Shown here: positions 22,360 through 40,315 of the stretch, piece after piece
How positions within the stretch are numbered: position 1 is the first letter of the stretch
Layout: each line of letters begins with the position of its first letter
Assembly: GCF_024171925.1 (NCBI RefSeq)
Contig: NZ_JAMTCO010000006.1
Coordinates: forward strand, 186,001 to 250,000
Length of the DNA: 64,000 nt
Direction of reading: 5' to 3'
From: Actinokineospora diospyrosa
GTDB lineage: Bacteria > Actinomycetota > Actinomycetes > Mycobacteriales > Pseudonocardiaceae
Notes under the pieces: generated by a model
What the model was told of the DNA's origin: nothing
Seen by the model: only the letters and a program-made list of their open reading frames with translations
Database searches by the model: none
Position numbers and translations under genes: made by a program

Positions 22360-22395
22360 ACAGGTCCCGGACCGTCGCGACGGTCCGGGACCTGT
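22360..22395. terminator. 36-bp perfect palindrome, probable strong hairpin terminator
   Basis: The bases run ACAGGTCCCGGACCGTC from the left edge and mirror exactly to the right edge, with GCGC-type self-complementary centre. As RNA it forms a 16-17 bp uninterrupted stem. There is no T-tract, as is common for actinobacterial intrinsic terminators. It lies 117 bases after the secreted-protein gene and before the decayed region. A binding site for a dimeric protein is the alternative. Confidence 0.65.
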
Positions 22396-23427: not shown

Positions 23428-23520
23428 TCGGTGTGCCGTCAGCGCCCGGTCGTGGGACAAGGTACCGGCCCTGGGGTGGGTCCGCTGGTGGGAATCATTA
23501 CCGCACAAGGGGAGAGTGCA

Positions 23521-24573
23521 GTGGAGATGACAGATCGGGAGCACGTGGTCGCTGTCCTGTCCGATGTGGACCAACACGTCCTCGGCGCGGCCGACACCGA
23601 GGTGGTGCCGATCGCGTCGCTGCGGTCGGCCGACTCGCCGCGCACCCAGGCCGAGGACCCGGACCACGTGCGCGTGCTGGCGCAGACCGAGGGCGGGTTG
23701 CCGCCGATCCTGGTGCACCGGTCCACCAGGCGCGTGATCGACGGGATGCACCGCATCCGGGCCGCCCTGCTGCGCGGGGCCGAGCAGATTGAGGTGCGCT
23801 TCGTGGACCTGCCCGAGGAGGACCTGTTCCTGCTCGCGGTCCGGCTCAACGTCCAGCACGGCCTGCCGTTGGCGATGGCCGACCGCCGCGCCGCCGCCGC
23901 CCGCATCCTGGTGTCGCACCCGCACTGGTCCGACCGCGCGATCGCGGGAACGGCCGGGCTGGACGCGAAGACGGTGCGCGGCATCCGCCGGGAGAAGGGC
24001 GGTGCTCCCGCCTCGACGCCGACCCGGATCGGTCGCGACGGTCGCACCCGCCCGCTCAGCGCCGCCGCGGGTCGCCGCTCCGCGGGGGAGCTGGTGAAGG
24101 CGAACCCCGCGATGCCGCTGCGCCAGGTTGCACAGCGGGCGGGCATCTCCCTGGGCACCGCCGCTGACGTGCGGCACCGGGTGATGCGCGGTGAGGACCC
24201 GGTGCGCGGCGGCACTTCTCGCCCTGGCGACACGGCGGGACGCGATGAGAAGGTGGCGGCTGCCCGGGAACCGGTGGCACCCGAGGGTGCCGGTCCCGAC
24301 GGCGCCTCGGTGGCCAACTTGATCGCCCGGCGGGATTCCGCGATGGCCCTGCGGATCCTGACCGCCGACCCCGCGCTGCGGTTCACCGACGCGGGCCGGG
24401 TCTTGCTGCGGTGGCTGAGCACCCGGTCCATCGACTCGCGCGAGTGGCAGGGCCTCATGGACGAGGTGCCTGCGCACTGCGCTGGCACGGTCGCCGACCT
24501 CGCCCGCCAGTGCAGTGAGTCCTGGCGGGAGTTCGCCGAACAGTTGGAGCGGCGTCACCGCGCCTCGGCCTGA
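23521..24573 (+). CDS. StrR-type pathway regulator with ParB-like N-terminal domain
   Basis: A 350-residue DNA-binding activator of the StrR/Bbr/Tei15* type, which controls antibiotic clusters. The ParB-like core is VPIASLRSADSPRTQAED, then LPPILVHRSTRRVIDGMHRIRAALLRG and LAVRLNVQHGLPLAMADRRAAAARIL. The HTH follows in HPHWSDRAIAGTAGLDAKTVRGIRR, exactly the layout of that family. A second HTH-like stretch (MPLRQVAQRAGISLGTAADVRHR) lies near residue 200. Start GTG 23521 has AAGGGGAGAG upstream. It is intact although flanked on both sides by gene remnants, so its current targets may be elsewhere, for example the polyketide locus or the operon at 26938. I did not find an unambiguous StrR operator. 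Confidence 0.82.
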   Translation: MEMTDREHVVAVLSDVDQHVLGAADTEVVPIASLRSADSPRTQAEDPDHVRVLAQTEGGLPPILVHRSTRRVIDGMHRIRAALLRGAEQIEVRFVDLPEEDLFLLAVRLNVQHGLPLAMADRRAAAARILVSHPHWSDRAIAGTAGLDAKTVRGIRREKGGAPASTPTRIGRDGRTRPLSAAAGRRSAGELVKANPAMPLRQVAQRAGISLGTAADVRHRVMRGEDPVRGGTSRPGDTAGRDEKVAAAREPVAPEGAGPDGASVANLIARRDSAMALRILTADPALRFTDAGRVLLRWLSTRSIDSREWQGLMDEVPAHCAGTVADLARQCSESWREFAEQLERRHRASA

Positions 24574-24599
24574 GGAGCCCCGGTGGTGGCGGTCGGACC

Positions 24600-25277
24600 T
24601 GCCGCCGCCACCGGGCCGCTCGACCCACCCGTTCTCGAGGGGTGGGGCCGCCGAAGGCGAGGCCGAAGAGGGTGTCGAACCAGCCCTGTCGGGCCGTTAA
24701 TTCGCTGGCACCCCGCGCTCGTGATCCGGCTGAGCAGCAGGTCGGCCCCCGTCGCGTCCCGCCGCCGCACCCGAACGAAGTCGGCGGTGCTCGCGGTCGC
24801 GCGGAGATGTCCGCGTCCGCGAAACCGGCAGCGGGGACGTGGTTGATCCGCCACCCGCTCGGCTCGACCGGTGACGCGCCGACCTCGTAGCCGAACGGTC
24901 CTGCCGAGTCGACCCGGGCTCCAGGGGGATCGGCTCGTGCGGGGCGACCTCCACCGGCCACCGCTCGTCTGGGCACTGCTCGGTGGGCAGGCCCGCCACC
25001 GACAGCGCGAGGTGGCCGCGCTTCCAGACCCACGCCCGGTGCGCGGTGACCCGGTATCCCAACTCGCCGAGCAGCAGGCCGAACGCGCCGTTGAGGTGGA
25101 AGCAGTAGCCGCCTCGGCCGAGCCGCGCGATCCGCTCGACCGACGCCGCGGGATCGATACCGGGCAGGCTGCCGGTCCGCATCGCCAGGGTCTCGAATGG
25201 GCCCGGCGCAGTCGCCGCAGGTTGGCCGAGGTCGGCGACAGTCCTACGAGGTAGCCCGTGATGTCCACAGCGCTCAC
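24600..25277 (-). pseudogene. frameshifted arylamine N-acetyltransferase / amide synthase homologue
   Basis: Family motifs are scattered over three minus-strand frames. A GTG at 25277 opens VSAVDITGYLVGL. A second frame carries the catalytic-Cys motif RGGYCFHLNGAFGLLLGELGY (DNA 25086-25118) and HLALSVAGLP. A third carries GPFGYEVGASPVEPSGW and then FVRVRRRDATGADLL. Together they follow the order of the NAT fold (Cys, His, Asp regions) but cannot be read as one protein, so at least two frameshifts are present. NAT homologues include both xenobiotic acetyltransferases and the RifF-type amide synthases that release ansamycins. Boundaries are approximate. Confidence 0.65.
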
Positions 25278-26027
25278 GGGTGCGCGGTTCGGGGGATTCG
25301 ACCGTTCCGAGTCGATGCGATCGGGGAATCGGGCGAATCGGGCCCCGAATGATTCCAATTTCCACCGCCGCGGAACGCCGGGTGTGTTCAACCGCGGAAG
25401 TCCGGCGGCTGAACGGCGAGATGAACGCGGGGGATACCGTGTCGCAGGATTCACTGGATTTTCTGGTCAACTCGTGCTTGCTGCCCGCTTACGGCGGCGC
25501 GGACCCCGGTGACGGGTGAAAGCGGGAGTTGGACCAAGGGCTGGCGGGCATCGTGCCGTTCGGTGCCGATCTCGGCCACTCGACGAGCAGGTTCACGCGC
25601 TCACCGCGGCAGCAACTACCCGGGCACCTTCGCGCTCGGCGCGGTCGACAGGGGCTACCTGGACGCGTCCGCCGCGCCGGGGACGATGGTGTTGAAGACC
25701 CGTGGCGCGGGTTTGGCCAACTCGGTGGCCGCGGCCGAGCTGCTGTCCGGTCGGCTGAGCGGGGGTGCTCCTCGTGACTGGTGGTGAGTCGGCCACGCCG
25801 TTTCTCGGCGTGATTTCGTTCAACTGGCGAGCGGTCGATTATCTGAACGCCGGTGGTACGTTTCCTCGGTCGAAAGACACGGGTTGCGTCGATGGGGGTG
25901 CGATCGTGAGTCCGGGTGATGTCATTGTCCTGCCGACCGCCGAAGAGACCGGGGCGGACACGCTGGCGGCCCGCGCGTTCCTGACCCCTGGCGGGGTGCT
26001 GCTGGACGACGAGGCGGGCGCGGAGCG
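25278..26027 (+). pseudogene. decayed coding region, family not recognised
   Basis: About 750 bases with coding-like composition are broken into short frames. One reads DSLDFLVNSCLLPAYGGADPGDG to a stop; others read VPFGADLGHSTSRFTR and then GYLDASAAPGTMVLKTRG with SVAAAELLSGRLS. A further frame (25765-26031) reads FLGVISFNWRAVDYLNAGG and DVIVLPTAEETGADTLAARAFL. These look like pieces of one or two formerly continuous enzymes interrupted by indels. I cannot name the family. The pieces lie between the NAT relic and the ROK kinase relic. Confidence 0.4.
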
Positions 26028-26586
26028 TTGACGGGGCCGCTGGCCGGTGATTTCTCGGCCGGGTTGGCCTGGCCGAGCGCCGCGCCGGTCCTGGTCTTCG
26101 ACCTCGATGGCACCTGGTTCCGCTCCGGCGTGCTGACCAGGGGCGACATCACCAGACTCGAGCGCCGTTCCGCGATCATCAACCGCGGCCTGCCCGGCGC
26201 CGAGGTGCGCAGGCGGATCGTCGCCTGGTTGACCGAGGCGGCTGATCGCGTCGGCGGTGCCACCGCGGTGCGTGGTGTCCCTCGGCGCGGCCCCGCTGTT
26301 CGGCGCCGAGCGGACCGACTGGTGGCCGGGGGTGGAGCTGCGCGCGGCGCGGCCGGGGGTGTCGTGGGTCGTGGTCAACGACGTGTCCGCGTTGCTGTGC
26401 AACGACGAGCTCGACCAGACGGGCGCCGCGGCCGCGGTGAGCATGGGGATCGCATACCGCACCATCGACTTGTGTACCAGGTGCGTCCCCTACGACCGCG
26501 AACACGGCTGCAAGGGGAGATCTCCCGTCGCGCATGTGGTGGCGGGGCGAACCCATGACCGCCGTGCGCGACCGAGGCGGGCGTGA
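26028..26586 (+). pseudogene. frameshifted ROK-family sugar kinase remnant
   Basis: The first frame opens with PVLVFDLDGTWFRSGVL, a ROK-kinase-like phosphate-binding strand (usually D-G-G-T), and runs to about 26270. Homology then continues in another frame with VVSLGAAPLFGAE and ARPGVSWVVVNDVSALLCN, where VVNDV is the expected catalytic-region motif, followed by GIAYRTIDL. The frame change and the missing C-terminal half indicate a pseudogene. ROK kinases in secondary metabolism include RifN-type kanosamine kinases and cyclitol kinases; which type this was cannot be told. Confidence 0.5.
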
Positions 26587-26937
26587 TCACGTGAGTTCGT
26601 TCGCCTCAGGCTCGGCCATCAGCTGGCTCCTGCCCGCGATGGCCCAATCCGTTCATAACGGGCACCGAGGCGTACCTCGTCACGGACCTGGGCGCCGTCC
26701 AGGACGTGTTGTCGGGGCTGGCGTGCTTGTTGAGATCCACAAAGGACAGTGTGGTAGGCGCCACGGTGCGCGGAATTCGATCAACTGGGAACCTGGAAGT
26801 ACCGGCGCGCCGTGGGGCTCACACCACCCGGGCGCGTTCGGGTCGGCGTTTCGACCGCGCGATCGCGCGTACCAGGACCAGTGCCGGTCCGTCGGTAGAT
26901 CCTTTCAGGACCCGAGATCGCACCGCGAGGTGAACCC
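26587..26937. other. intergenic/decayed region upstream of the dioxygenase operon
   Basis: About 350 bases. A short frame near 26659-26745 reads GTEAYLVTDLGAVQDVLSGLACLL, which looks protein-derived but is not placed in a family. The promoter of the operon beginning at 26938 must lie in the last 100-200 bases; I see no confident -35/-10 pair there. Confidence 0.4.
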
Positions 26938-27978
26938 ATGTCTGTTGAGCAGTCCTTGTTCCCCGCCGCGTCGAGCATTGCCTACCGCAGTGCTGACGCG
27001 GACACCTACCAAGCTCCCGTGCAGCTACGAGATCTGGAGAAAGAGCTGCCACTTCGAGTGCTATCCCAAGAGGACTTCGCGTCCTGGCAGGCCTACGGGT
27101 ACGTCGTCGTACGCGAGGCCATCGCGCGCGAGTCAGCACTTCGATTGCTCGACTTCGCCTGGGAGTTCCAAGGTCTGGACCCGGCGCGGCCCGAGACCTG
27201 GTACCCCGAGCGCGAGTACCGCTCCGAGCTCGACCGCGACCTGCACGTCTACGGGTTCGTGGAGGCGTACCACCACCAGCTCCTCTGGGACAGCAGGCAG
27301 ACGCAGCGGGTCTACGACGCGTTCGTGGACGTGTGGGACTGCGCTGAACTCTGGGTGACCCTCGACCGGCTCAACCTGAACCCGCCGAACGTCGGCAACC
27401 GCGACCGCGCGCTGATCGCGCCGACGGGCCGCGGCTTCGACATGGACCTGCACTGGGACGTGGACACCACCGCGGCCCGCCCGCCGCAGCGGGTTCAGGG
27501 CATCATCGCGCTCGAGGACACCCGGCCGGAGCTGGGCGGGTTCCAGTGCTGCCCCGAGCTGTTCCACCGCTTCGACGAGTGGAAGGCCACCCAACCCGGG
27601 GACCGCGACCCGCTGCGGCCGCGGATCGACCGCGCCGAGTTCCCGCTCGTGCGGCCGGTGTTGCGCGCCGGTGACCTCCTGATCTGGAACGGCTTGGTGG
27701 CGCACGGCGTCGCCCCCAACACCTCCACCGACGGTGTCCGAGCGGCGCAATACCTGGCGATGATGCCCGCCCTCGAGGCGCACGAGGAGTTGCGCCGCTC
27801 GCGGGTCGAGTCCTGGCGCACCTTGGACACACCCACCTGGAACCCCACCCTCCTCGGCGATGCCCGGCGCCCCGAGGCCCTCCGCTACGGCACTGCCGAG
27901 CTGTCCGAGCTGGGGGAGAAGCTGCTCGGGCTGACACCGTGGCACGCTGGAGAGGTCGAATGCACCCGATCTGCCTGA
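26938..27978 (+). CDS. Fe(II)/2-oxoglutarate dioxygenase, phytanoyl-CoA hydroxylase (PhyH) family
   Basis: A 346-residue oxygenase expected to hydroxylate or desaturate an intermediate of the operon. The iron triad is visible: His172 and Asp174 in DLHWDVD, and His256 in NGLVAHGVAPN. A downstream Arg in GVRAAQYL would bind 2-oxoglutarate. The N-terminal FASWQAYGYVVVREAIARESALRLLDFAWEF is the usual PhyH opening. The start ATG 26938 follows GCGAGGTGAACCC. Its 3' end overlaps the next gene by 19 bases, marking it as first gene of a coupled operon. The substrate is unknown; a peptide or amino-acid derivative is possible given the context. Confidence 0.87.
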   Translation: MSVEQSLFPAASSIAYRSADADTYQAPVQLRDLEKELPLRVLSQEDFASWQAYGYVVVREAIARESALRLLDFAWEFQGLDPARPETWYPEREYRSELDRDLHVYGFVEAYHHQLLWDSRQTQRVYDAFVDVWDCAELWVTLDRLNLNPPNVGNRDRALIAPTGRGFDMDLHWDVDTTAARPPQRVQGIIALEDTRPELGGFQCCPELFHRFDEWKATQPGDRDPLRPRIDRAEFPLVRPVLRAGDLLIWNGLVAHGVAPNTSTDGVRAAQYLAMMPALEAHEELRRSRVESWRTLDTPTWNPTLLGDARRPEALRYGTAELSELGEKLLGLTPWHAGEVECTRSA

Positions 27979-29261
27979 CCCTGCCGACCAACCGCGACTG
28001 TGTCGCCACCATCGGCGCGATGCTGGCGGAAGCCGCCTACGCCGTCGAGAACTTCGACGTCCAGGTAGACCTGCTGATCCTGGATTCCTGTGGTGAGCGC
28101 GAGTTCGCCGCGCACGCGGCCGCCGCCGCCACCACAATCCCTGGCGTCACGGTCCACCACCTGGACGAAGCACGCCAACGGGAGTTCCTGCGCGAGGCCA
28201 TTGCGGAATCCGGTGTGCGGCAACCGGGGCACGTGCTCGACCTGATGCTGCCCACGGGCGTGTCCTACGGCGCGTGCACCAACCGCGCGTTCCTCATCGC
28301 CTCCGCCCTCGGCTGCGTGTCCTTCCACCGCCGCGATTCCGACAGCCGCTACCAGGAGTTCGATGGCGCACCGGTGTTCCCGATCCACCACGAGCTCACC
28401 TCGATCGGTCTGCGCGCGGGCGAAGCGACGCGCGTGAGCGAGGTCGCGCTGGATCCCGTGCACGCGAACAAACCCGTGGTGTTGGTCGGCGCCTCCTTCA
28501 TCGGTGACCTGTCGGTGGACATCGCGGAGATCCGTGAGCTCGATCCCGAGGCGTACGAGGACATCGTGGGCCTGTGGGCACCCGCCGACGCGACCGAGGG
28601 GGAGAAACGGGAGCTGGTCGCGGAGTCGTTCACCGGCGCGGGAACAGAACCGTTCACCGGCGACCGCTCGATCCTCACGATTGTCGACCCGATGCGGGTG
28701 GACATGTGCAACATCGCGTTCCACGACGTGCAGGAACTCGTGCCGCTGCCGCCCGCGACCGACACGATCGGCAGCGACTACTTCCTGCTGCACCTGATCC
28801 GCACCGCGGCGCTGCCCGGCGTGCTGCACAACCGGCACATAGTCAACTTCCACACCCCGGAGCGCAAGACCGACGCCGGGTTCGCCGACTACCACCTGCG
28901 CCTGGCCAAGTTCTTCCTGTCGATGCTGTACCTGCGTGCCGTATACGACGGGATGGCCGCGGCGGGGGAGACCCTGCTCGACGAGGGGAACCGGGTCCGG
29001 CCCGGCGCCGTCGCCGAGCTGGTGCGGCGGAGCACCCGGCTGGACGTCGCGGACAACGTGCGGCGCTTGGAAGTCCTCGATGCGGCGTACCGGCGGCTGG
29101 GCGGCAAGTACGCCCGTCTCGCCGACACGCTCATCGACCGGCGCGACCAGCTCCTGGACGAGGCGCGCGCGGACATGGCGGACTTCGCGGTGCTGATCGA
29201 CGCCTGGGCCCCGCTGGTCGGCGCGGCCGCGCGCATCGGCTTGGGAGCGCGGCGCCGATGA
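27960..29261 (+). CDS. GT-A-like protein, possibly DUF6271 family
   Basis: A 433-residue soluble protein. The opening MHPICLTLPTNRDCVATIGAML followed by VDLLILDSCGE resembles the first Rossmann strands of family-2-like glycosyltransferases. HRRDSDSRYQ provides a DxD-type motif for metal/nucleotide-sugar binding, and IVDPMRVDMCN and IGSDYFLLHLI are further conserved-looking blocks. I recall actinobacterial proteins of this type under DUF6271, but could not check. ATG 27960 has GGAGAGG upstream and begins inside the dioxygenase gene. Its stop overlaps the decarboxylase start (ATGA). Glycosyl transfer is an inference from the DxD and the fold pattern. Confidence 0.65.
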   Translation: MHPICLTLPTNRDCVATIGAMLAEAAYAVENFDVQVDLLILDSCGEREFAAHAAAAATTIPGVTVHHLDEARQREFLREAIAESGVRQPGHVLDLMLPTGVSYGACTNRAFLIASALGCVSFHRRDSDSRYQEFDGAPVFPIHHELTSIGLRAGEATRVSEVALDPVHANKPVVLVGASFIGDLSVDIAEIRELDPEAYEDIVGLWAPADATEGEKRELVAESFTGAGTEPFTGDRSILTIVDPMRVDMCNIAFHDVQELVPLPPATDTIGSDYFLLHLIRTAALPGVLHNRHIVNFHTPERKTDAGFADYHLRLAKFFLSMLYLRAVYDGMAAAGETLLDEGNRVRPGAVAELVRRSTRLDVADNVRRLEVLDAAYRRLGGKYARLADTLIDRRDQLLDEARADMADFAVLIDAWAPLVGAAARIGLGARRR

Positions 29262-30451
29262 GCGGGACCGACCTCATGGCGGCGCTCGCCGCGGCGTCGA
29301 CGGACCGCGTCCTGTTCGACCTCGACGGGATCCGCGCGACTTACCGGAACCTGACCGATGAACTGCCGGGCGTCGAGGTCAAGTTCGCGATGAAAGCGTG
29401 CCCGGTGGACGAGGTGATCGCCGGGTTGGCCGCCCGCGGCGCCGGTGTCGACGCGGCGAGCCCGGGGGAGATCGCGCAAGCGCTCTCGGCGGGCGTGGCG
29501 GTCAGCGATGTCCACTTCGGAAACACGGTGAAATCGGACCAGGACATCGTGGCCGCCTATCGCCTCGGCGTTCGGGACTTCGCCACCGACAGCCTTGAGG
29601 ACGTCACCGCGATCGCCCGGCACGCCCCCGGTTCCCGGGTGTTCTGCCGCCTCGCGACGGACGGCGCAGGGGCCCTGTGGCCATTGAGCCGCAAGTGCGG
29701 GTGCTCGGTACCGGACGCTGTGCGCGTGCTGGACCGCGCGCGACAGCTCGGTCTGAAACCGTCCGGATTGTCCGTCCACATTGGTTCGCAGCAGATGTCG
29801 ACCACCGCTTGGCGTGCCGCGTTCGACAGGCTCGCGGACGCCATCGTCGCGCTGCGCGGGCGGGGCATCGCCCTCGACCACGTGAACCTCGGTGGCGGTC
29901 TCCCCGCGCTGACCTACCTCGACCGACGCGGCGAGCCGCTGCGGCCGCCCCTGTCGGGGATCTTCGAGGCGATCCGGTCCGGCATCGGCCACCTGCGGGG
30001 CGTGTCGCCGGTACCGTTGCGGTTCCTGGTGGAACCGGGCAGGCACCTCGTCGCCGACCACGGCGCCATCCGGGCGCACGTGGCCCGGCTGACCTCCCGG
30101 CAGCTGCTCGACGGCGGCCAAGAGCGGTGGCTCTACCTGAGCTGCGGCAAGTTCAACGGCCTGTACGAGACCGACCAACTGCGCTACAGGCTGGTGTTCC
30201 CCGCCAGTCCGGCCGCCGACTTCGTGCCCGCGATGATCGCCGGACCCACCTGCGACAGCGACGACGCCTTCGGCGGCGACGGCGGTCCGGTTCGGGTTCC
30301 TCGCGACCTGCGCTCCGGCGACCCGGTCTGGATCATGGCGTGCGGTGCGTACTCGATCAGCTACATGACGCGCGGGTTCAACGGGTTCGGGCCGCTGCCT
30401 TACGAGATCGTCCAAGCGCACGACCGCGAGCAGGCGCCGTGCCCAGCATGA
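29258..30451 (+). CDS. fold-type III PLP-dependent decarboxylase (ornithine/diaminopimelate decarboxylase family)
   Basis: A 397-residue enzyme related to ornithine, diaminopimelate and carboxynorspermidine decarboxylases. The PLP lysine is Lys46 in VKFAMKACP, GLSVHIGSQ provides the His stacking the cofactor, NLGGGLP binds phosphate, FLVEPGRHLV is the conserved EPGR, and Cys332 lies in GPTCDSDD, the trans-subunit active-site motif. It would decarboxylate an amino acid or a peptide-derived residue. It overlaps its neighbours by 4 bases on both sides. The substrate-specificity helix cannot be read reliably by eye. Its position between the GT-A-like protein and a GNAT suggests making and then capping an amine. 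Confidence 0.9.
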   Translation: MSGTDLMAALAAASTDRVLFDLDGIRATYRNLTDELPGVEVKFAMKACPVDEVIAGLAARGAGVDAASPGEIAQALSAGVAVSDVHFGNTVKSDQDIVAAYRLGVRDFATDSLEDVTAIARHAPGSRVFCRLATDGAGALWPLSRKCGCSVPDAVRVLDRARQLGLKPSGLSVHIGSQQMSTTAWRAAFDRLADAIVALRGRGIALDHVNLGGGLPALTYLDRRGEPLRPPLSGIFEAIRSGIGHLRGVSPVPLRFLVEPGRHLVADHGAIRAHVARLTSRQLLDGGQERWLYLSCGKFNGLYETDQLRYRLVFPASPAADFVPAMIAGPTCDSDDAFGGDGGPVRVPRDLRSGDPVWIMACGAYSISYMTRGFNGFGPLPYEIVQAHDREQAPCPA

Positions 30452-30957
30452 GGATCCGGCACCTGGTCGCCGAGGACTGGGCGGCGATCGCGGCGCTGGA
30501 GGCCGCCACTTACGGTGCCTTGTCGGAGGGGCGCACCGTGTTGCAGTCGCGGGCGGTCGCCTCCCCGGAGACGTGTTTCGTCCTCGACGCCGGGGAGCGG
30601 ATCGCGGGTTACGTGCTGTCGTTGCCGTACCCGGACCACCGGTTCCCGGACCTGTCCGAGCCGGAGTTCACCGTCCACGGGCGGGCGAACCTGCACCTGC
30701 ACGACCTGGTGATCGCACCGGCGTCGCGGGGTCACGGGTTCGGCGCGCTGCTGGTGGACCGGGTGATCGAGGCCGCGGTGGGCGCTGAACGGGTGTCCCT
30801 GGTCGCGCTCGAGGGGACTGGGGCGTTCTGGACCGCGCGCGGGTTCCGGGCGCTCCCGGCGGTGGCGACGCCGGGCTACGGTCCCGGCGCGGTGTACATG
30901 TCCAGGCCGATCACCCGGCGGGTCGAGTCCGCCGGTGGAACACGGAGGTCACAGTGA
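30448..30957 (+). CDS. GNAT-family N-acetyltransferase
   Basis: A 169-residue acyltransferase. The acetyl-CoA-binding motif A is LHDLVIAPASRGHGFGALLVDRVIEAA, with the R/Q-x-x-G-x-G/A loop as RGHGFG. GTGAFWTARGFRAL is motif B. It likely acylates an amine, plausibly the product of the decarboxylase just upstream, or gives self-protection. Start ATG 30448 overlaps the decarboxylase stop; an in-frame GTG at 30439 is an alternative. The stop overlaps the MFS GTG (GTGA). Confidence 0.87.
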   Translation: MRIRHLVAEDWAAIAALEAATYGALSEGRTVLQSRAVASPETCFVLDAGERIAGYVLSLPYPDHRFPDLSEPEFTVHGRANLHLHDLVIAPASRGHGFGALLVDRVIEAAVGAERVSLVALEGTGAFWTARGFRALPAVATPGYGPGAVYMSRPITRRVESAGGTRRSQ

Positions 30958-32114
30958 CGGGTCCGGTGGGGTTCCCCCGACAGTTGCTCGCGATCGCGGC
31001 GCTGTTCAGCCTGCTCGGTTTCCAGTACTCCACCTGGGCCTCGCGGATTCCCGCGCTGGCCGATCGGATGGACCTCGACCCGCGCGAGGTCGGCTTGCTC
31101 TTGCTGGCAACGGGTGTTGGCGCGGCGGGGTCGTTCCCCCTTGTGCGGTACCTGATGCGGCGGCTGGGCTCGCGCGACCTGGCGTGCCTGTCGGGTTTGT
31201 TGCTCGGCGGGGTGCTGATCGCGCTCAGCGCGACGCCGAGCTTCGCCGTGGCACTGGTGGTCATGGCCTTCGACGGGGTGGTCGTGGCCTGCCTCAACGT
31301 GGCGATGAACGCCCAGGGCGCGGCGCTGGAGGTCCGGCACGGGCGCAACGCGATGGCCCGGTTGCACGCGACCTTCAGCGGTGGCTCCCTGGTCGCCGCG
31401 CTCGTGGCGTCCGCGGTGACCTCGGTGACCGAGGACCTGTGGGTGCACTTCGGGATCGCGCTGGTCGTCGTGCTGGCGTTGCTCGCCCTCGCCCGACCCG
31501 CGTTGCTGACCTCGGACATCGAGCCGGAGGAGAAGCCGCGCCGCGGCCGGTTCGCCCTGCCCGCGGCGGCCACGCTGTGGCTCGGGGCGGCGATGGTGTT
31601 CGGCACCATCACCGAAGGTGCGATGAACGACTGGTCGGCACTGTACCTTGAGGACATCGCCCAGGCCCCAGCATCCCTGGCCCCTTTGGGTATCGCGGTC
31701 GTGTCCGCCATGATGCTGGTGGCCCGCCTCTTCGCTGACGGCTGGCGCACCCGCTTCGGCGACGGCGCCGTGGTCCGCGTGGGCGCCACCCTGGCGGGGA
31801 TCGGCTTGGCCGCGGCCCTGCTGATCGGCGGTGTCGTCCCGGCGCTCATCGGCTTCGCCTGCGTGGGCCTCGGCATCGCCGCGGTTACCCCCTGTGTCTA
31901 CGTGGCCGCCGCCCGTCAGGGATCGGACGCGTTGACTTTGGTGGCGGCGATGGGCGTGACCGGCCTGCTGGGCGGGCCGCCGATCATCGGGTTCGTGGCG
32001 GGTGCGGGCAACCTGGCTTGGGGCATGGCCGTGGTCGCGGTGTCGGCGCTGGTGGTCGCGGTGTGCGCCCTGCGGATCCACTGGCCCACCCGGGCTGTCG
32101 CACCGGTCGAGTAG
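30954..32114 (+). CDS. MFS transporter
   Basis: A 386-residue membrane protein with about twelve hydrophobic segments (LLAIAALFSLLGF, GLLLLATGVGAAG and others). The opening with YSTWASRIPALADRM and the MNAQGAALEVRHGRNAMARLHATFSGGS loop is typical of the FucP/YbjJ-like MFS subgroup, often annotated as small-molecule exporters. GTG 30954 overlaps the GNAT stop, so it is translationally coupled. It is the first of two different MFS transporters in the operon, one or both probably exporting the product. Confidence 0.88.
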   Translation: MTGPVGFPRQLLAIAALFSLLGFQYSTWASRIPALADRMDLDPREVGLLLLATGVGAAGSFPLVRYLMRRLGSRDLACLSGLLLGGVLIALSATPSFAVALVVMAFDGVVVACLNVAMNAQGAALEVRHGRNAMARLHATFSGGSLVAALVASAVTSVTEDLWVHFGIALVVVLALLALARPALLTSDIEPEEKPRRGRFALPAAATLWLGAAMVFGTITEGAMNDWSALYLEDIAQAPASLAPLGIAVVSAMMLVARLFADGWRTRFGDGAVVRVGATLAGIGLAAALLIGGVVPALIGFACVGLGIAAVTPCVYVAAARQGSDALTLVAAMGVTGLLGGPPIIGFVAGAGNLAWGMAVVAVSALVVAVCALRIHWPTRAVAPVE

Positions 32115-32177
32115 CCCGCTCCCGGGGTGCCGCAGTCTCGGGCGTTGCCCGGTTGACGGTGGCGGTTGGATGGGGCG

Positions 32178-33353
32178 GTGGCGGAGACCAAGGGAGCGGT
32201 GCGCGGGCAGCTGGGGCTGCTGCTGGGCGCCAAGGCCGTGTCGGACATCGGGTACGCGTTGGACTTCGTGTGCCTGTCGATCTTCGTGTGGGAGTCCACC
32301 CGGTCGACGTTGGCGACCGGGTTGGTGAGCGTGGCGCTGTACGCGGGGCAGATCCTCGGCGGCAGGCTCGGGCACGCGTACGGGGCCCGGTGGGACCGCC
32401 GGTCGGTGATGGTCGTCGCCGACCTGGTGCGGATGGCGGCCCTGCTGACCCTGGCCGTGCTCCCCGGGCAACCGCAGCTCTACGTCGCGGTGTTCCTGGT
32501 CGGGATCGGGCGGTCGGTGTTCGAGGGGACGCTCAGCGCGGCGACGCCGGTGTTGGCGGGGGAGCGGGCGCAGTTCGTCAACAGCGTGCTGGCGGGCATC
32601 AAGGGCATCGGGTTCATGGCGGGCATGAGCCTGTCCGCGGTCGCTGTGCCGGTGATCGGCTTCCAAGGGGTGTTCGCCCTCGACGCCGCCAGCTACGCGC
32701 TGTCCGCTCTGGTGCTGTTGGCCATCCGGATCCCGTTCCGCGACAGCGAGCCCGCCACACCCGCTGACAGCAAGAAGCTCCTCTGGCCGCTGGTCGTCGC
32801 CGCCGGGTTGGTGCCGCTGTTCGTGGTCCGGTGCCTGGACGCGTTCGGCAGTTCGTCGCAGCACGTCGGCATCCCGGTTCTGGGCAGCGAGCTGAGCCCC
32901 GACACGCCCACCGAGGCCGCGGGCGTCATCTGGGGGGTCTGGGCGGCCGGTCTGCTCGCCGCCGGGTTCGTGTTCCGCCCGCTGGCGACCAAGGTCATCG
33001 CCCGCGCCCCGGGCGTGGTGTTCTGCCTGGCCACGGTCCTCATGTCGCTCGGCTTCATCGGCATCTTCTGGTTCGACGAGTGGCCGTTGCGGCTGGCAGG
33101 CGCCGCGCTCGCCGGGATCGGGGACGCGTTCAGCGAGGTCGCGTTCAAACAGGCCGTGCAGCGCTTGCCCGACCAGCAGCGGGGGCAGGCGTTCGGCCTA
33201 TCGCAGATCGTGGTGAACAGCGGTTTCATGGCCGGGCTCGTCGCCACCAGCTTCCTGCTCACCCCCGACTTCGTGCCCGAGTGGGTGCTGATCCTGCACG
33301 GCGTGCCGATGCTGGTCGCGGTCGCGGCGATCGCCCGGGTGCGTGCCCGGTGA
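32178..33353 (+). CDS. MFS transporter (macrolide-efflux-like)
   Basis: A 391-residue second transporter, not closely similar to the first. GYALDFVCLSIFVWESTRSTLATGLV and GARWDRRSVMVVADLVRMAALL follow the MFS_3/MefA-type pattern, with the DRR loop between helices 2 and 3. It starts at GTG 32178 with a purine-rich GGATGGGG upstream; a TTG 12 bases earlier is less likely. It is separated by 63 bases from the previous gene and overlaps the next by GTGA. Probable role: export or immunity. Confidence 0.86.
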   Translation: MAETKGAVRGQLGLLLGAKAVSDIGYALDFVCLSIFVWESTRSTLATGLVSVALYAGQILGGRLGHAYGARWDRRSVMVVADLVRMAALLTLAVLPGQPQLYVAVFLVGIGRSVFEGTLSAATPVLAGERAQFVNSVLAGIKGIGFMAGMSLSAVAVPVIGFQGVFALDAASYALSALVLLAIRIPFRDSEPATPADSKKLLWPLVVAAGLVPLFVVRCLDAFGSSSQHVGIPVLGSELSPDTPTEAAGVIWGVWAAGLLAAGFVFRPLATKVIARAPGVVFCLATVLMSLGFIGIFWFDEWPLRLAGAALAGIGDAFSEVAFKQAVQRLPDQQRGQAFGLSQIVVNSGFMAGLVATSFLLTPDFVPEWVLILHGVPMLVAVAAIARVRAR

Positions 33354-34450
33354 CCGCGTACCTGGACTACGCGGGCATGGGCAAGCTGCGCCCCCGGGCC
33401 GTGGCCGCGATGCAAGAGGCGCTGGTGGACGTCTTGCCGCACGGTAGCGCCGAGGTCGGTCGGATCTTCCCCGCCCGTCGCCGCGCCCGCGCGCTGGCCG
33501 CCGGGTTGCTCGACTGCTCGACCGACGAGATCGCCTTCGTCACCAACACCTCCACCGGCCTGCACCTGGTCGCCGACGGCCTCGACTGGCGCGCGGGCGA
33601 CGAGGTCGTCGTGTTCGACCGGGACTTCCCGGCCAACGTCCACCCGTGGCGGATGCACGACGTCCGGTTGGTGTGGGTACCGATGCGCGACGGCGGGTAC
33701 CGGATGGAGGACGTCGAGGCGGCGATCAGCCCCGCCACCCGGTTGGTCGCGGTCAGCCACGTCAACTTCGCGACCGGGTTCCGCGTCGACCTCGACGCGG
33801 TGTGCGCGCTCGCGCACCGGGTCGGCGCCCTGGTGAGCGTCGACGCCGTGCAGAGCCTCGGGGTGCTGCCGCTGTCGGTGGCCGACACCCCGGTCGACTT
33901 CCTCGCCGCCGGGGCGCACAAGTGGCTCTGCGGTCCGGTCGGCACCGGTATCTTCTTCAGCCGCCGCGAGCACCTGCCCCACCTGCGCTTACCCGGCGGG
34001 TGGTTCGGGTTCGAGGGCGCCAACGACATGCTCACCAAGGGCGCGGGCCACTTCCGCTACGACCTGTCACCGCTGCCGACGGCCGCGCGCGCCGAGGGGG
34101 GCATGTACAACGTGCTCGGCATGGTCGGTTTGGCCGAGACCCTGGCCGAACTGTCCGAAGTGGGCATCCCGGCGATCGCCGAGCGGGTGCGCCATTTGAC
34201 ACAGCGGCTCTGCGACGGACTGCGCAGCGCGGGCTGCGCCATTTCCGCGAGCACCGGTGGCGACGACTGGTCCGGGATCGTCGGTTTCACGCACCCGACA
34301 AGGGAATCCGTCCCGTTCGCGCAGGAACTGGTCGCCGCGGGCTACCACGTGTCGCACCCGGACGGGCTGGTCCGGGTGGCCCCGCACCACTGGACCGACG
34401 AGGCTGAGGTGGACGCCTTCCTGCGGGCGATCACGCTTCGTATTCGTTGA
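33350..34450 (+). CDS. class V aminotransferase / cysteine desulfurase-like PLP enzyme
   Basis: A 366-residue fold-type I enzyme. The PLP lysine is Lys191 in AAGAHKWLCGPVGTG. SVDAVQSLG carries the Asp and Gln contacting the cofactor. The N-terminal YLDYAGMGKLRPRAVAAM and FVTNTSTGLHLVADGL match class V enzymes (cysteine desulfurases, selenocysteine lyases, isopenicillin-N epimerase-like proteins). Typical NifS/SufS C-terminal catalytic-Cys loops are not evident, so lyase, epimerase or transaminase chemistry is as likely as desulfuration. GTG 33350 overlaps the MFS stop. It lies 109 bases upstream of the cysteine-containing peptide gene, which may be its substrate. Confidence 0.85.
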   Translation: MTAYLDYAGMGKLRPRAVAAMQEALVDVLPHGSAEVGRIFPARRRARALAAGLLDCSTDEIAFVTNTSTGLHLVADGLDWRAGDEVVVFDRDFPANVHPWRMHDVRLVWVPMRDGGYRMEDVEAAISPATRLVAVSHVNFATGFRVDLDAVCALAHRVGALVSVDAVQSLGVLPLSVADTPVDFLAAGAHKWLCGPVGTGIFFSRREHLPHLRLPGGWFGFEGANDMLTKGAGHFRYDLSPLPTAARAEGGMYNVLGMVGLAETLAELSEVGIPAIAERVRHLTQRLCDGLRSAGCAISASTGGDDWSGIVGFTHPTRESVPFAQELVAAGYHVSHPDGLVRVAPHHWTDEAEVDAFLRAITLRIR

Positions 34451-34494
34451 CAGAAAAGGTGTTGCGTGCTCATTACGGTGGGGTTGCCCGGCTC

Positions 34495-34523
34495 TTGTTC
34501 GGCCCGAAACCGCTTGCTATGTT
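34495..34523 (+). promoter_or_regulatory. candidate promoter for the 29-residue peptide gene
   Basis: TTGTTC (34495-34500), a 17-base spacer and TATGTT (34518-34523) give a good sigma-70-type match. Transcription would start about 30 bases before the peptide ATG at 34560. A perfect TTGACA at 34447-34452 lies further upstream but lacks a good -10. A dedicated promoter inside the operon fits a precursor needed in excess. Confidence 0.5.
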
Positions 34524-34559
34524 CCGATCCACCGGACCCCCGAACGAAGGAGCAGCGAA

Positions 34560-34649
34560 ATGGCCTACGAGACCTGGGAATCACTCGCGGACGAGGTCGA
34601 GATCAGCACCGGCGCGGCGGACTGCTGGGTGTGCCTGGTCGACGCCTGA
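34560..34649 (+). CDS. 29-residue candidate precursor or scaffold peptide with a CWVC motif
   Basis: The ATG is preceded by GAAGGAGCAGCGAAA, a strong ribosome binding site. The peptide begins MAYETWESLADEVEI, an acidic helix-prone leader-like part, and ends ADCWVCLVDA, with both cysteines and a second Trp in the last eight residues. This split between an acidic amphipathic N-terminus and a short residue-rich C-terminus is typical of RiPP precursors and of peptide scaffolds used by tRNA-dependent ligases. It sits between a PLP enzyme and a TPR protein/aminopeptidase pair, with its own promoter and a downstream hairpin. No homologue is known to me. It could instead be a regulatory leader peptide. 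Confidence 0.65.
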   Translation: MAYETWESLADEVEISTGAADCWVCLVDA

Positions 34650-34662
34650 TCCGTTCCGGCGG

Positions 34663-34687
34663 CCCCGCGGGCACATCCGCCGCGGGG
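34663..34687 (+). terminator. hairpin between the peptide gene and the TPR gene (attenuating terminator)
   Basis: CCCCGCGG (34663-34670) and CCGCGGGG (34680-34687) form a perfect 8-bp GC stem around a 9-base loop, 14 bases after the peptide stop and 35 bases before the TPR start. There is no T-tract. Partial terminators in this position are common after RiPP precursor genes, where they raise precursor transcript over enzyme transcript. Confidence 0.6.
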
Positions 34688-34721
34688 TTCGCCCGCCACC
34701 GCTGACAGGAGCCCTGAGTCG

Positions 34722-37196
34722 ATGGACCGCTGGGAGTTGGCGCACGGCCGCACCGGGGCGAACGCGCCGAGCTGGCTCACCTTCGAGGTCCACCGGCCCT
34801 ACCTCGACGGCGCCGATTCGCCGTTGACCACGGTGCACGCCAGGGGATCCCTGCTCGCCGCCCGCCGGTTCGAGCAGCGCGACCCCACCGCGCCGCGCTT
34901 CGGCATGACCATGCCGGGCAGCTACCGGTCGCTGCTCGACGAGGAGTCCCGGCTGGTCCCGTACCGGGTGGTCGACCCGACCGGCCTCGACCCGGCGCTC
35001 GCCTCGCCCACCTGGCTGCGGATGTCCTCGGCGTTCGCCGAGCGGTCCGGCCTGGACGACGTGGACCGCGCGGGCTTGGCGCAATGGCTGTTGGCGACGT
35101 GCCTGCCCCGGGCTGTTCTGGATGTGGTGCCCGCGGACCTCTCGGAAGAGGAGTGCGCTGACCCGGTTCGCGCTGTCGGACAATGGACCCGGGCCAGTGC
35201 GCTATTCGCTGTAGAAGGCCTGTCGGACCGAACGCGCGCCGCGTATTCGCCATTGGTGGAGAATCCGGCCTCGACGGTGGCCCACGCGCAGGCGTGCGCC
35301 GCGTGGGGCTACCTCGTCACCCGCCACGCTGCCGACGATTCCGTCGCGCCCGCGCACTTCGCGCGCGCCGAGGAGATCCTCAAAGGACTCGAACTCCCCG
35401 ACTTCGACCACAGCCTGCTGCGTGCCCGGCTCCTGCTGCGCCAGGTGATGCACGCGGAGCGGCAAGAGGCATTCGACCACGCCTGGCGCCTGCTCGACGA
35501 AGCGGCCGATCTCGCGCAGTCGCCGACCAACGCCGACGAGGAGGCGCTGGCCATCGAGATGCGCCGCCGGATCGCGGACCGGCGGGTGGACATCGCGGTG
35601 CGCCGTGGGGATACGGCGGCGGAGGACATCTGGATCGCTGAGGCATTGGCGCTCGACCCGTATGACGTGAAGGCCCGGATGCAAGCGGCGCAAGCGGTTG
35701 AACGGCGTGGGGACACCGAGACCGCGCTGGCGGGATACCTGGAGACGGCCCGCCTGGGTCCATTCGGGACGGCGTTCGCGCTCCTCGCCGCCGTTCGCTG
35801 TGCGTCGGCGCTCGGTCATGACGAGTTCGCGCGCGTGCTGGCCGAACGTGCGCACCGCACGGCGCCTCGGTCAGCGCGCACTCGGGAAGCCTTGGCGGAG
35901 CTGTCCGACCCGGCACTCGCGGACATGGTGCGCCAGCCTGTGGAACGCGGGTTCGAGCACAATTGGCACTACCGGATGTACGGGGCGTACTTCAACTTGG
36001 GCGTGTCCCAGTCGCCGTGCCTGTATGCCTCGTTGCCCACCTGGGCGTTCGAGTTCGCTGACGCTGGTGCGCCGCCGGAAGTCAACTGGCAGCGCTTGAT
36101 GCCGCCCGCGTTCCGGGCGAACCTGGTGCGCGAGTCCGGGTTGGTGGAGTTCGCGGTCCGCCACCCGGCCGATCTCCCCGCATCGCTGCGGACACCCGCG
36201 TGGGACCGGTTGTGCGCGTGGATCGACGAGTTCCCGCACGCTGACGCCGAGCGGCAGTACCTGACCGCGGTGGTGTTGTTCCGGCTGGGTTTCGGCGCCC
36301 TGGTACTGGACCTGCTGCCCGCGCGCCCGATCGACCAGTCGATGACGGTCGCCGAACTGCGGTTGTGGCACTGGCGAGACGTGGTGCGCTACGTCGGTTC
36401 GATCGGTTCACCCTCGGTGGCTGAGCCGACGGCGTCGTTCGAGATCGCCGACCACCCGGCGTGCCCGACACACCTGCGGTTCGTGATCTCGGTGTTCGCG
36501 GTGGTGTACCACGCCCGGGAGACCAAGTCGTTGGAAGCCGCGGAGCTGTGGCGGTCGAAGGCGCAGGAGAGCCTGGACTTGTTGTTGACAGGGGATTCCT
36601 ACTCGCCGTTCGAGAAGGCGATGATGGAGAGCCGGTTCTACCGGAGCGTCACGTACGTGCCGTTCCTGCGGCGGGACCGGGCGCAGCTCGAGCGGGAGAT
36701 GGACCGGGCGGAGGAGCTGGCCCGAGCGGTACCGTTCCAGAGCCCGTACGAGGAGTTCCTGGCGCGGGAGAACCTGCGGGCCTGCCTGGAGAGCCGGTCG
36801 AAAGAAGCGTTCGGGTTCGGCGAGCACGAGCGGGGTAGGCGGTTGGTCGAGGAAGTGCTGGCGATCGATCCGTACGAGCCGAAGACGCACATGGAGTTGG
36901 CCGAGGTGCTGCTTGCCGAAGGGCGCGAACGGGAGGCAGGCGAGTCGTACCTGCGTACGGCTCGGCTTGGGCCCATCGGGACCGCCCGGGGGTACGCGTT
37001 GGCGGGGGAATGCTTCGACCGGGCGGGAGTGCCTTTGCTAGCAGAGGATTGCTTCGTCCAGGCGCTGCGGGTGGACCCGCATGCCGTGTCGGCCGCCAGG
37101 GGGTGGGCACGGGTGGCGACGGGGACGTTGGCTGCGGTGGCCGGGGAGTACGCCCGCGACCTGGAGGCGTGGGGCGCTGCGCGCCGGGCTCGATGA
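34722..37196 (+). CDS. large TPR-like protein with internal duplication, unknown function
   Basis: An 824-codon soluble protein. Helical repeats dominate from about residue 190 on. Two long segments are clearly related: one near 305-350 with EALALDPYDVKARMQAAQAVE and TARLGPFGTA, and one near 705-760 with EVLAIDPYEPKTHMELAEVLL and TARLGPIGTA, showing an ancestral duplication. Between them is a different region with FEHNWHYRMYGAYFNLG and VNWQRLMPPAFRANLV, perhaps a catalytic or peptide-binding insert. The N-terminal 120 residues are not TPR-like. ATG 34722 follows AGGAG. Its stop overlaps the aminopeptidase start (ATGA). A peptide-binding or scaffold role for the upstream small peptide is inferred from context only. 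Confidence 0.72.
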   Translation: MDRWELAHGRTGANAPSWLTFEVHRPYLDGADSPLTTVHARGSLLAARRFEQRDPTAPRFGMTMPGSYRSLLDEESRLVPYRVVDPTGLDPALASPTWLRMSSAFAERSGLDDVDRAGLAQWLLATCLPRAVLDVVPADLSEEECADPVRAVGQWTRASALFAVEGLSDRTRAAYSPLVENPASTVAHAQACAAWGYLVTRHAADDSVAPAHFARAEEILKGLELPDFDHSLLRARLLLRQVMHAERQEAFDHAWRLLDEAADLAQSPTNADEEALAIEMRRRIADRRVDIAVRRGDTAAEDIWIAEALALDPYDVKARMQAAQAVERRGDTETALAGYLETARLGPFGTAFALLAAVRCASALGHDEFARVLAERAHRTAPRSARTREALAELSDPALADMVRQPVERGFEHNWHYRMYGAYFNLGVSQSPCLYASLPTWAFEFADAGAPPEVNWQRLMPPAFRANLVRESGLVEFAVRHPADLPASLRTPAWDRLCAWIDEFPHADAERQYLTAVVLFRLGFGALVLDLLPARPIDQSMTVAELRLWHWRDVVRYVGSIGSPSVAEPTASFEIADHPACPTHLRFVISVFAVVYHARETKSLEAAELWRSKAQESLDLLLTGDSYSPFEKAMMESRFYRSVTYVPFLRRDRAQLEREMDRAEELARAVPFQSPYEEFLARENLRACLESRSKEAFGFGEHERGRRLVEEVLAIDPYEPKTHMELAEVLLAEGREREAGESYLRTARLGPIGTARGYALAGECFDRAGVPLLAEDCFVQALRVDPHAVSAARGWARVATGTLAAVAGEYARDLEAWGAARRAR

Positions 37197-38581
37197 CCGA
37201 GTGGGTGATTGGCCCGCCCACCGCAGGTACTTCGGTGGCTCCTGCGTTCTCGGACCGGCCTGTTGACGGGATTCCGGCTGAGTTCCTCGCCGCTGTTGGG
37301 TTTGTCGGCGGAGTTGGTCAGGTGGTGCAGATCCCGGGATCAGTCCTCTATGGACTTGGTGTGGTAGGGGACCTGGATGCGGACGCGGTTCGACGTGCGG
37401 CGGGGGAGTTGGCGCGGTCGGTGCGCGGACACCGGCACCTCGCGATCACCGTTCCCGATGGGTACTCGCGGCCGTTCGTCGAGGGTTTCGTGTTGGGCGG
37501 CCACCGGTTCACCCGCTACCAGAGCGACCCCGACATCGCAGGTGTCGACCGCGTCGACCTGATCACGTCCGACGATCCCGCGCACCTGCGTGCCGCGCTG
37601 GTGGTGGCCGAGGCGGTGGTCCTGGCCCGCGATCTCGTCGCCGAGCCCGGTGACGTCCTGACGCCCATCGCTTTTGCCGATCGTGCGGTGGAAGTCGCCA
37701 GCGCCGCCGGACTCGAGTGCGAGGTCTGGGACGAGAAGCGCATCGCCACCGAGCGCCTGGGCGGGCTGCTCGGCGTGGCCCGCGGCTCGCGCAACCCGCC
37801 CCGTCTGGTCCACCTCAGGTACCTGCCGGGCTCCGGAGCCCCCACCGCCTTGGTCGGCAAGGGCGTCACGTTCGACGCGGGCGGACTCTCCCTCAAACCA
37901 ACACCGCAGATGATCGACATGAAAGCCGACATGGCAGGCGCCGCCACCGTTCTCGGCGTCATGTCCGCCTTGTCCGCCCTCGGGTGCCCACGCCCCGTCG
38001 ACGCCTGGCTCCCCCTCACCGAGAACATGCCCACCGCCGACCCCATCCGCATCGGCGACATCCTCCGCATCCGCAACGGCACCACCGTCGAGATCCGCAA
38101 CGCCGACGCCGAGGGCCGCCTCATCCTCGCCGACGCCCTGGTCCTGGCCGCCGAGACCCACCCCACCGCGATCATCGACGTCGCCACCCTCACCGACGCC
38201 GCCGCCATCGCCCTCGGCCGCCAGATCACCCCCGTCATCACCAACGACCCACCCCTGTCCGATGTCCTCCTAGCCGCCGCAACCCGGGCGGGCGAACCGT
38301 TCTGGCCTCTCCCGTTGCCCGCCCGCTACCGCGCCCTCCTGGCCTCCACCACCGCCGATCTGGTCAACTACACCACCGGCCTCCGCCACGGCACGGCTCT
38401 GCTGGCGGCCCTCTTCCTCAACCACTTCGTCCCGCCCACCACACCCTGGGCCCACCTCGACATCCAGGGCACCGCCTTGGCCGACCACCCCTACGCCGAA
38501 CACCCCGCTGGCCCAACGGGTGTCGCCGTGCGCGCACTCCTGGAGTACCTCGTCGCGGCCCCCGTTGCTCCTTCGGTGTGA
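37193..38581 (+). CDS. M17 leucyl aminopeptidase family protein
   Basis: A 462-residue cytosolic dinuclear metallo-aminopeptidase. The catalytic core shows LVGKGVTFDAGGLSLKP (metal-binding Lys and Asp), MIDMKADMAGAATVLG, and NADAEGRLILADAL with the family's NTDAEGR-type signature as NADAEGR. The N-terminal domain of about 170 residues is divergent. The start overlaps the TPR stop by ATGA, so it belongs to the same operon as the small peptide. It probably trims peptide N-termini, fitting stepwise removal of a leader or release of a C-terminal product. General housekeeping PepA is the alternative, but the coupling argues for pathway use. Confidence 0.9.
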   Translation: MTEWVIGPPTAGTSVAPAFSDRPVDGIPAEFLAAVGFVGGVGQVVQIPGSVLYGLGVVGDLDADAVRRAAGELARSVRGHRHLAITVPDGYSRPFVEGFVLGGHRFTRYQSDPDIAGVDRVDLITSDDPAHLRAALVVAEAVVLARDLVAEPGDVLTPIAFADRAVEVASAAGLECEVWDEKRIATERLGGLLGVARGSRNPPRLVHLRYLPGSGAPTALVGKGVTFDAGGLSLKPTPQMIDMKADMAGAATVLGVMSALSALGCPRPVDAWLPLTENMPTADPIRIGDILRIRNGTTVEIRNADAEGRLILADALVLAAETHPTAIIDVATLTDAAAIALGRQITPVITNDPPLSDVLLAAATRAGEPFWPLPLPARYRALLASTTADLVNYTTGLRHGTALLAALFLNHFVPPTTPWAHLDIQGTALADHPYAEHPAGPTGVAVRALLEYLVAAPVAPSV

Positions 38582-40210: not shown

Positions 40211-40315
40211 GTCCGTCCTCAGGTCGGTTCGAGTGGTCACATCATGCCTGCCGACCCGGGCTGGTTCGTGCGCCCGTTCGGCCGCTTGACCAGGGCGGCG
40301 TCCATAACGTTCGAT

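Follow-up and report, generated by a model that had tools for sequence, protein, structure and literature searches.

Here we describe a five-gene cassette of Actinokineospora diospyrosa that encloses a gene for a peptide of 29 residues. It lies in a window of 64,000 nucleotides (RefSeq assembly GCF_024171925.1, contig NZ_JAMTCO010000006.1, positions 186,001 to 250,000 of the forward strand; host genome 8.1 Mb), whose own numbering is used throughout. Judged by gene content and sequence comparison, positions 32166-38581 are a self-contained, patchily distributed unit encoding a major facilitator superfamily transporter (MFS2), a class-V pyridoxal phosphate (PLP) enzyme (AT5), the peptide, a tetratricopeptide repeat (TPR) protein of 824 residues and an M17 leucyl aminopeptidase (Table 1). 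The initial annotation had described a run of ten plus-strand genes joined mostly by start-stop overlaps, and this run is present as described: all ten reading frames were found and six of the nine junctions overlap, the remaining three being gaps of 51 nt (MFS1/MFS2), 109 nt (AT5/peptide) and 72 nt (peptide/TPR). Profile scans of the window proteins confirmed the family labels, with Pfam matches over cut-off to PhyH (PF05721), DUF6271 (PF19787, 1.4e-215), Orn/DAP decarboxylase (PF02784), GNAT (PF00583), MFS_1 (twice), Aminotran_5 (PF00266) and Peptidase_M17 (PF00883). The assignments as PhyH, PLP decarboxylase, GNAT, two MFS transporters, class V PLP enzyme, TPR protein and M17 peptidase can thus be kept, and only the label "GT-A-like" for the DUF6271 protein found no support in Pfam or NCBIfam, the protein having its PF19787 match and nothing else notable in NCBIfam.

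The search for orthologues of the TPR protein covered 298 genomes of the order and 16 of the genus, and two TPR patterns were used for a wider scan of one genome per species across 84,980 species. In the genus, seven of the 16 genomes have a full-length match (65-89% identity in the six others), three have weak partial matches and six have none. The wide scan yielded 15 loci, from Actinokineospora, Actinocrispum, Kitasatospora, Streptomyces, Streptacidiphilus and Allorhizocola, which together with the window and the related genome G299 (locus L032) make up the set of 17 loci used here; these were gathered by TPR similarity, and cassettes that have lost the TPR gene are invisible to the scan. 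The set includes A. globicatena DSM 44256 and A. terrae DSM 44260 (L043 and L044). The peptide, AT5 and TPR genes are present at all 17 loci, M17 at 16 and MFS2 at 15, the misses of MFS2 (L054, L056) and M17 (L054) being contig ends. The AT5 frame is interrupted at two loci (L053, L057) and truncated at two more (L054, L056), and the TPR gene is fragmented at L057 and truncated at L054. At two of these loci, L057 (Streptacidiphilus sp. 4-A2, with AT5 and TPR frames broken) and L053 (Streptomyces sp. H39-S7, with AT5 broken near its end), the peptide is intact, and both sequencing error and decay fit the broken frames. Since no frame of at least 100 residues outside the five genes is common to more than two of the 17 loci (E 1e-15) in the flanks examined, which besides the window comprised 0-7.5 kb upstream and 0-9.9 kb downstream, five genes may suffice. 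Sharing between two loci was seen for L047/L048 (22 of 24 clusters), L044/L046 and L050/L057. Among 394 genomes of the class, the TPR protein matched at E 1e-8 only in the two cassette genomes, and a search for orphan peptides gave strong matches (2.1e-20) in the same two only, by which the cassette is rare and patchy; the next peptide match, in G422 (6.4e-4), was read and judged to be due to chance.

The peptide gene of the window (MAYETWESLADEVEISTGAADCWVCLVDA) has AAGGAG upstream of its ATG. Across the 17 loci the peptide is 29-33 residues long, and its stop codon lies 58-125 nt upstream of the TPR start at the 15 scan loci. The core is close to W-E-x-L-x-D-E-V-E-I-S/T-T-x-x-A-D-C-W-V/T-C, with Asp-Cys-Trp-x-Cys fixed. 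In alignment A2, which covers 16 of the 17 loci (L044, whose peptide is identical to that of the window, is omitted, and the row for L056 begins at an internal start, its full frame beginning with GTG), residues M1, L9, D11, E14, T17, A20, D21, C22, W23, C25 and D28 are invariant, a variable tail of 1-4 residues follows the last conserved Asp, and no secretion signal is apparent by eye. The pooled ratio of non-synonymous to synonymous change (pN/pS) over the 23-codon core is 0.24 for the 17 loci, indicating purifying selection; the +1 and +2 frames contain stops in eight and five of the 17 loci, respectively, and the stop-free loci give ratios above 2.7. Among the congeneric genomes the peptide was found in all seven that carry a full-length TPR orthologue and had no match in the nine that do not (three of which have the weak partial TPR matches), and a positive control for the search returned exactly one match in each of eight cassette genomes. 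The peptide is real, as the initial annotation had held, and its tie to TPR, M17, AT5 and MFS2 is firm. That annotation had named two grounds for doubting it, homologous operons without the peptide and a frame unconserved at synonymous versus non-synonymous sites; none of the 17 cassettes lacks the peptide, and the pN/pS ratio speaks for a conserved frame.

Table 1. Features of the cassette and of the genes preceding it, in window coordinates.
Feature	Position	Strand	Remark
Module A: PhyH, DUF6271, PLP decarboxylase, GNAT, MFS1 (genes 1-5)	26938..32114	+	Judged outside the cassette
MFS2 transporter, cassette gene 1	32166..33353	+	PF07690 7e-25; TTG start uncertain
AT5, class-V fold-type-I PLP enzyme, SufS/C-DES-like	33350..34450	+	PF00266 1.5e-43
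Promoter-like TTGTTC-N17-TATGTT upstream of peptide gene	34495..34523	+	By eye
29-codon peptide gene	34560..34649	+	Kept at 17/17 loci
GC-rich stem between peptide and TPR genes, without U-tract	34661..34689	+	Stem search
824-aa TPR protein, two helical units of ~400 residues	34722..37196	+	Orthologues at 17/17 loci
M17 leucyl aminopeptidase	37193..38581	+	PF00883 7.7e-106

Letters similar to the promoter-like sequence can be recognised by eye at all seven Actinokineospora loci and were not seen in other genera; in Actinokineospora itself a separate transcript may begin at the peptide gene. All 17 loci have a perfect stem (G-U pairs allowed) of 9-17 bp in the gap from the peptide stop to the TPR gene, with sequences that differ between genera. 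At 14 loci no more than one in 100 mononucleotide shuffles reaches the observed stem, the exceptions being the window (10-bp stem, 8/100), L047 (13/100) and L056 (8/100), and folding z-scores for the gap range from -0.2 (window) to -3.9. As the z-score of the window is just -0.2, the case for the stem is made by the locus set and not by the window. Stems behind precursor genes are common in operons for ribosomally synthesised and post-translationally modified peptides (RiPPs), and a stem-loop 3′ of the peptide gene may ensure that more peptide is made than TPR protein or M17.

AT5 groups with SufS-like enzymes by Pfam, NCBIfam and its relatives in the PDB, and Foldseek searches with its model (mean predicted local distance difference test score, pLDDT, 67, which is moderate) placed SufS-type structures first by E-value (1.6e-22), the highest TM-scores among the 50 matches listed belonging to the cystine lyase C-DES (TMq 0.60-0.61). 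PADLOC returned only generic desulfurase-type matches (SspA, DndA). The PLP lysine K191 is kept in all 13 aligned orthologues, from which L053, L054, L056 and L057 are omitted on account of broken or cut frames, and so are H190, D165, Q168 and R342. In the same 13 sequences Val334 occupies the position of the catalytic persulfide Cys of SufS, in a column placed by hand from the alignment with PDB relatives. A conserved Arg anchors the amino-acid carboxylate in Egt2 and cystathionine beta-lyases (PMC11794154, in excerpt), and Arg342 of AT5 may do likewise. PvdN, which is among the relatives found by PDB comparison, acts on a glutamate that lies within a peptide and yet has its alpha-amino as well as its alpha-carboxy group free (PMC6206403, in excerpt). 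The comparison suggests that AT5 would act late, on a liberated residue or an end group.

The M17 protein retains K223, D228, K235, D246, D305, E307 and R309 in at least 15 of 16 orthologues; their roles as metal ligands and catalytic Lys and Arg are those we presume after bovine leucine aminopeptidase. In the PDB the cassette enzyme matches 5lhj best (281 bits, the next scoring 226), the bottromycin maturation enzyme BotP (PMC7746303, in excerpt). The genome contains two further M17 genes; for one of them 5lhj is again the best match (286 bits), and for the other it ranks third (260 bits). The match therefore says little, and a BotP-specific kinship of the cassette enzyme was rejected. The 824-residue protein has only weak TPR matches, below the curated Pfam cut-offs, and is an internal duplication whose halves align with each other (BLASTP 9e-15, HHalign 3.1e-20). 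Its model is all helical (mean pLDDT 73), and its PDB matches are merely generic TPR proteins, designed-repeat proteins and solenoids.

On balance, and with slightly better than even confidence, we favour the view that the cassette is an undescribed RiPP-like pathway with the peptide as its dedicated substrate. This reading is drawn from the presence of the peptide at every locus, the purifying selection upon it and its co-occurrence with the full-length TPR gene (7/7 versus 0/9 congeneric genomes), as well as from the lack of other widely shared genes in the flanks covered, the intact M17 residues, the retention of the PLP lysine and Arg342 in AT5 with Val replacing the SufS Cys, its likeness to C-DES and the GC stem at 17/17 loci. 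The part played by an M17 enzyme in bottromycin maturation, the TPR and MFS genes of the biphenomycin cluster and the TPR protein of the ammosamide cluster, all described below, also count in its favour. The peptide would then be a conserved, gene-encoded candidate precursor beside processing genes, a role that, like all chemical steps, TPR binding, transcript structure and export, is one we infer. Its front (approximately W-E-x-L-x-D-E-V-E-I) would serve as a recognition segment and the fixed D-C-W-V/T-C as the part that is converted. The duplicated TPR protein may hold the peptide and partner enzymes, the M17 aminopeptidase would break the peptide down starting at the N-terminus, and AT5 could act on an exposed free alpha-amino group, or on a liberated amino acid or short product, most likely at a Cys-derived sulfur-bearing group much as C-S lyases or PvdN-type enzymes act on their own substrates; export of the product would fall to MFS2. 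Since the core is near-invariant across families, one conserved product is suggested rather than an arms-race bacteriocin. Much more tentatively, and with the balance of probability tipped against it, the cassette might define a new class of ribosomally encoded small molecule, in which a Cys-Trp-x-Cys peptide on a duplicated TPR protein is dismantled by a dedicated M17 enzyme and a SufS-like PLP enzyme without the catalytic Cys into one conserved, exported sulfur- or indole-bearing cofactor, metallophore or signal, without any known RiPP-class enzyme.

Several observations weigh against a RiPP-like pathway. Pfam and NCBIfam scans of the cassette proteins of the window turned up no enzyme diagnostic of any established RiPP class (lanthionine, YcaO, radical SAM, ATP-grasp, MNIO and others), which for the cassette agrees with the statement of the initial annotation that lanthionine, lasso, radical-SAM and YcaO enzymes are absent, and the general Pfam profiles gave no PqqD-like match to a RiPP recognition element (RRE) at E <= 1. 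Arg342 of AT5 matches a residue that binds a free alpha-carboxylate in relatives, and an internal peptide residue does not have one. AlphaFold placed the peptide without confidence both in the TPR chain (block pLDDT 22-23; alignment A3, 16 rows, three with the peptide) and in the AT5 chain (block pLDDT 33-48; alignment A4, 13 rows, one with the peptide); L057 was omitted from both alignments and L053, L054 and L056 from A4, and placement runs with so few rows neither support nor refute binding. The nearness of M17 to BotP is not specific to the cassette, and the stem of the window itself is weak.

Second in rank, though improbable, is a peptide-signal system, in which the peptide acts as a messenger within the cell or as a pheromone and is bound by the TPR protein as an RRNPPA-like receptor, M17 processes or degrades the signal, the PLP enzyme modifies it and the MFS transporter exports it. 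The juxtaposition of a small peptide gene and a duplicated TPR protein with an all-helical, TPR-type model recalls an RRNPPA receptor, and the Cys-Trp region is near-invariant in A2 rather than diversifying. Among distant relatives of the TPR protein (~23-33% identity), half-size forms adjoin an AraC regulator (L123, on a Streptomyces plasmid) or an ArsR-type regulator (L038, L039). However, the cassette protein has no helix-turn-helix domain by Pfam, unlike most RRNPPA members, the cassette contains no regulator, and the peptide shows no secretion signal by eye. Moreover, another half-size relative adjoins a 2-oxoglutarate (2OG) oxygenase (L037) and a relative of 831 residues adjoins a condensation domain (L035). 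As its distant relatives adjoin such differing genes, the TPR family serves several contexts. A search of plasmids gave two distant, partial TPR relatives (27.5% identity). At L123 (7205-9251) a 44-codon frame lies between the AraC and TPR genes, and the relative with the 2OG oxygenase is at L037 6815-8538; a search for short Cys-bearing open reading frames (ORFs) beside six distant relatives (L035-L040) turned up none that was convincing.

A short ORF followed by a stem-loop is the classical layout of an attenuator, and the arrangement at 17/17 loci, with codons for Cys, Trp and Cys ahead of a GC stem, would suit a leader ORF that couples TPR-M17 expression to the supply of Cys or Trp, in which case the peptide would be inert. 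We consider this quite unlikely, as selection acts on some 20 residues, mostly away from the Cys and Trp codons (the pN/pS of 0.24 given above), and the stem has no U-tract.

We give very little credence to scaffolding of the kind mediated by peptide aminoacyl-tRNA ligases (PEARLs). The C-terminal tail is short and varies in length after the conserved Asp, the ammosamide cluster likewise holds a TPR protein in the excerpt cited below, and PF04738 proteins occur somewhere in ten of 12 cassette genomes. Against this, the cassette has no PEARL (small lantibiotic dehydratase, PF04738; Lant_dehydr_N), and M17 is an aminopeptidase rather than a carboxy-side protease. Two of the 12 genomes (G204 and G664) lack any PF04738 match, and in the other ten the nearest is ~27 kb away (G661), the remainder lying on different contigs or no closer than 365 kb. 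A PEARL acting in trans was rejected as non-universal on the strength of the two genomes without a match. The original inference of a RiPP- or PEARL-type pathway survives in part: the peptide is tied to TPR, M17, the class-V PLP enzyme and one MFS transporter, and PEARL-type scaffolding finds no support, with no PEARL in the cassette and no match in two of the 12 genomes.

It is equally hard to credit that all ten genes make up one pathway in which PhyH, DUF6271 and the decarboxylase tailor the peptide. The two MFS genes lie on the same strand with merely their 51-nt gap between them, and co-transcription is possible in this strain. Nevertheless, genes 1-5 (module A) and genes 6-10 appear to be two separate neighbouring units rather than one operon, and the ten-gene unit of the initial annotation was not upheld. 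None of PhyH, DUF6271, the decarboxylase, GNAT and the first MFS gave a match at any other cassette locus in the flanks covered, which upstream run from 0 to 7.5 kb. Of the 298 genomes of the order, only three, one of them that of the window, have a DUF6271 match over its cut-off, and the congeneric cassette genomes G014, G132 and G204 have none anywhere. Conversely, locus L041 carries all five module A genes and L042 carries DUF6271, the decarboxylase and GNAT, and neither L041 (a contig of only 12 kb) nor L042 has a match to the peptide, TPR, AT5, MFS2 or M17. The peptide, which had been expected to recur beside homologues of the TPR and DUF6271 proteins alike, thus does so for TPR at 17/17 loci and fails to do so for DUF6271, given these two loci and the three cassette genomes without DUF6271. 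The TPR protein of G299 is 89% identical, and in that genome the matches to window positions 38475-32148 and 21176-7643 adjoin, only 89 bp apart, so that positions 21177-32147 (~11 kb, containing module A) are missing from this relative; gain in the window genome and loss in G299 both fit. With module A and the cassette each recurring apart, and G299 without module A, a single ten-gene operon was rejected. Around DUF6271, the fold-III PLP decarboxylase and GNAT accompany it in three of three places and PhyH and an MFS in two of three; this unit is perhaps a small-molecule pathway of its own.

Elsewhere in the window, a second TPR protein (692 residues) and neighbouring frames of 388 and 214 residues occupy 52044-55945 on the minus strand, with a counterpart at L118 10781-14612; the two neighbouring frames have no Pfam or NCBIfam match at E 1e-5, and G299 has this stretch at 85% identity. 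Two polyketide synthase frames of a single module each lie at 5963-10498 and 13999-17958, the first without an acyltransferase domain by Pfam. Near them are a BTAD/NB-ARC regulator (2335-4137) and a subtilase (17980-21126), and G299 retains most of this region next to its cassette. Downstream of the cassette, positions 40244-50836 are occupied by a single open frame, 3530 codons long and rich in GC at third positions.

No description of the peptide, the cassette or DUF6271 was found in the open-licence papers searched. The genome-mining tool decRiPPter yielded 42 candidate families from Streptomyces, some with aminotransferases (PMC7794033, in excerpt), and the present cassette may be among them. 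If the peptide is indeed the substrate, this would be a RiPP class without a known class-defining enzyme, and hence one invisible to class-based mining. The five-gene cassette would then also offer an experimentally small test case for the role of TPR proteins in RiPP and scaffold-peptide clusters.

In mycofactocin and pyrroloquinoline quinone (PQQ) biosynthesis, a short conserved peptide (MftA and PqqA, respectively) gives rise to one conserved small molecule with the help of a peptidase. The cassette differs from both in that no radical SAM enzyme and no RRE protein were found in it (Pfam and NCBIfam; RRE by general Pfam profiles). The bottromycin pathway has YcaO and radical SAM enzymes, which the cassette does not. 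Both encode an M17 leucyl aminopeptidase together with a ribosomal precursor, and in bottromycin an M17 enzyme carries out maturation (PMC10885120, in excerpt). AT5 resembles the cysteine desulfurase SufS, C-DES and PvdN in fold and PLP-binding residues; it differs from SufS in having Val for the catalytic Cys (13/13) and in a cassette without a sulfur-acceptor gene, and from PvdN in showing no twin-arginine translocation (Tat)-like signal by eye. The scaffold-peptide cluster of ammosamide contains a TPR protein to which the excerpt of PMC12424672 assigns no role, and the pearlins, of which ammosamide is one, share with the cassette, as far as that excerpt goes, a short carrier peptide, a peptidase and a TPR protein; the cassette has no PEARL, and an aminopeptidase takes the place of TldD/E and a dipeptidase. 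In the biphenomycin RiPP cluster (bip), TPR and MFS genes lie directly beside the precursor gene (PMC12707348, in excerpt), a likeness in gene content to the small precursor and MFS and TPR neighbours of the cassette. Within the same excerpt, biphenomycin biosynthesis draws on radical SAM, MNIO, JmjC and HExxH enzymes together with a TldD-related peptidase, whereas the cassette pairs its peptide with a class-V PLP enzyme and an M17 aminopeptidase.

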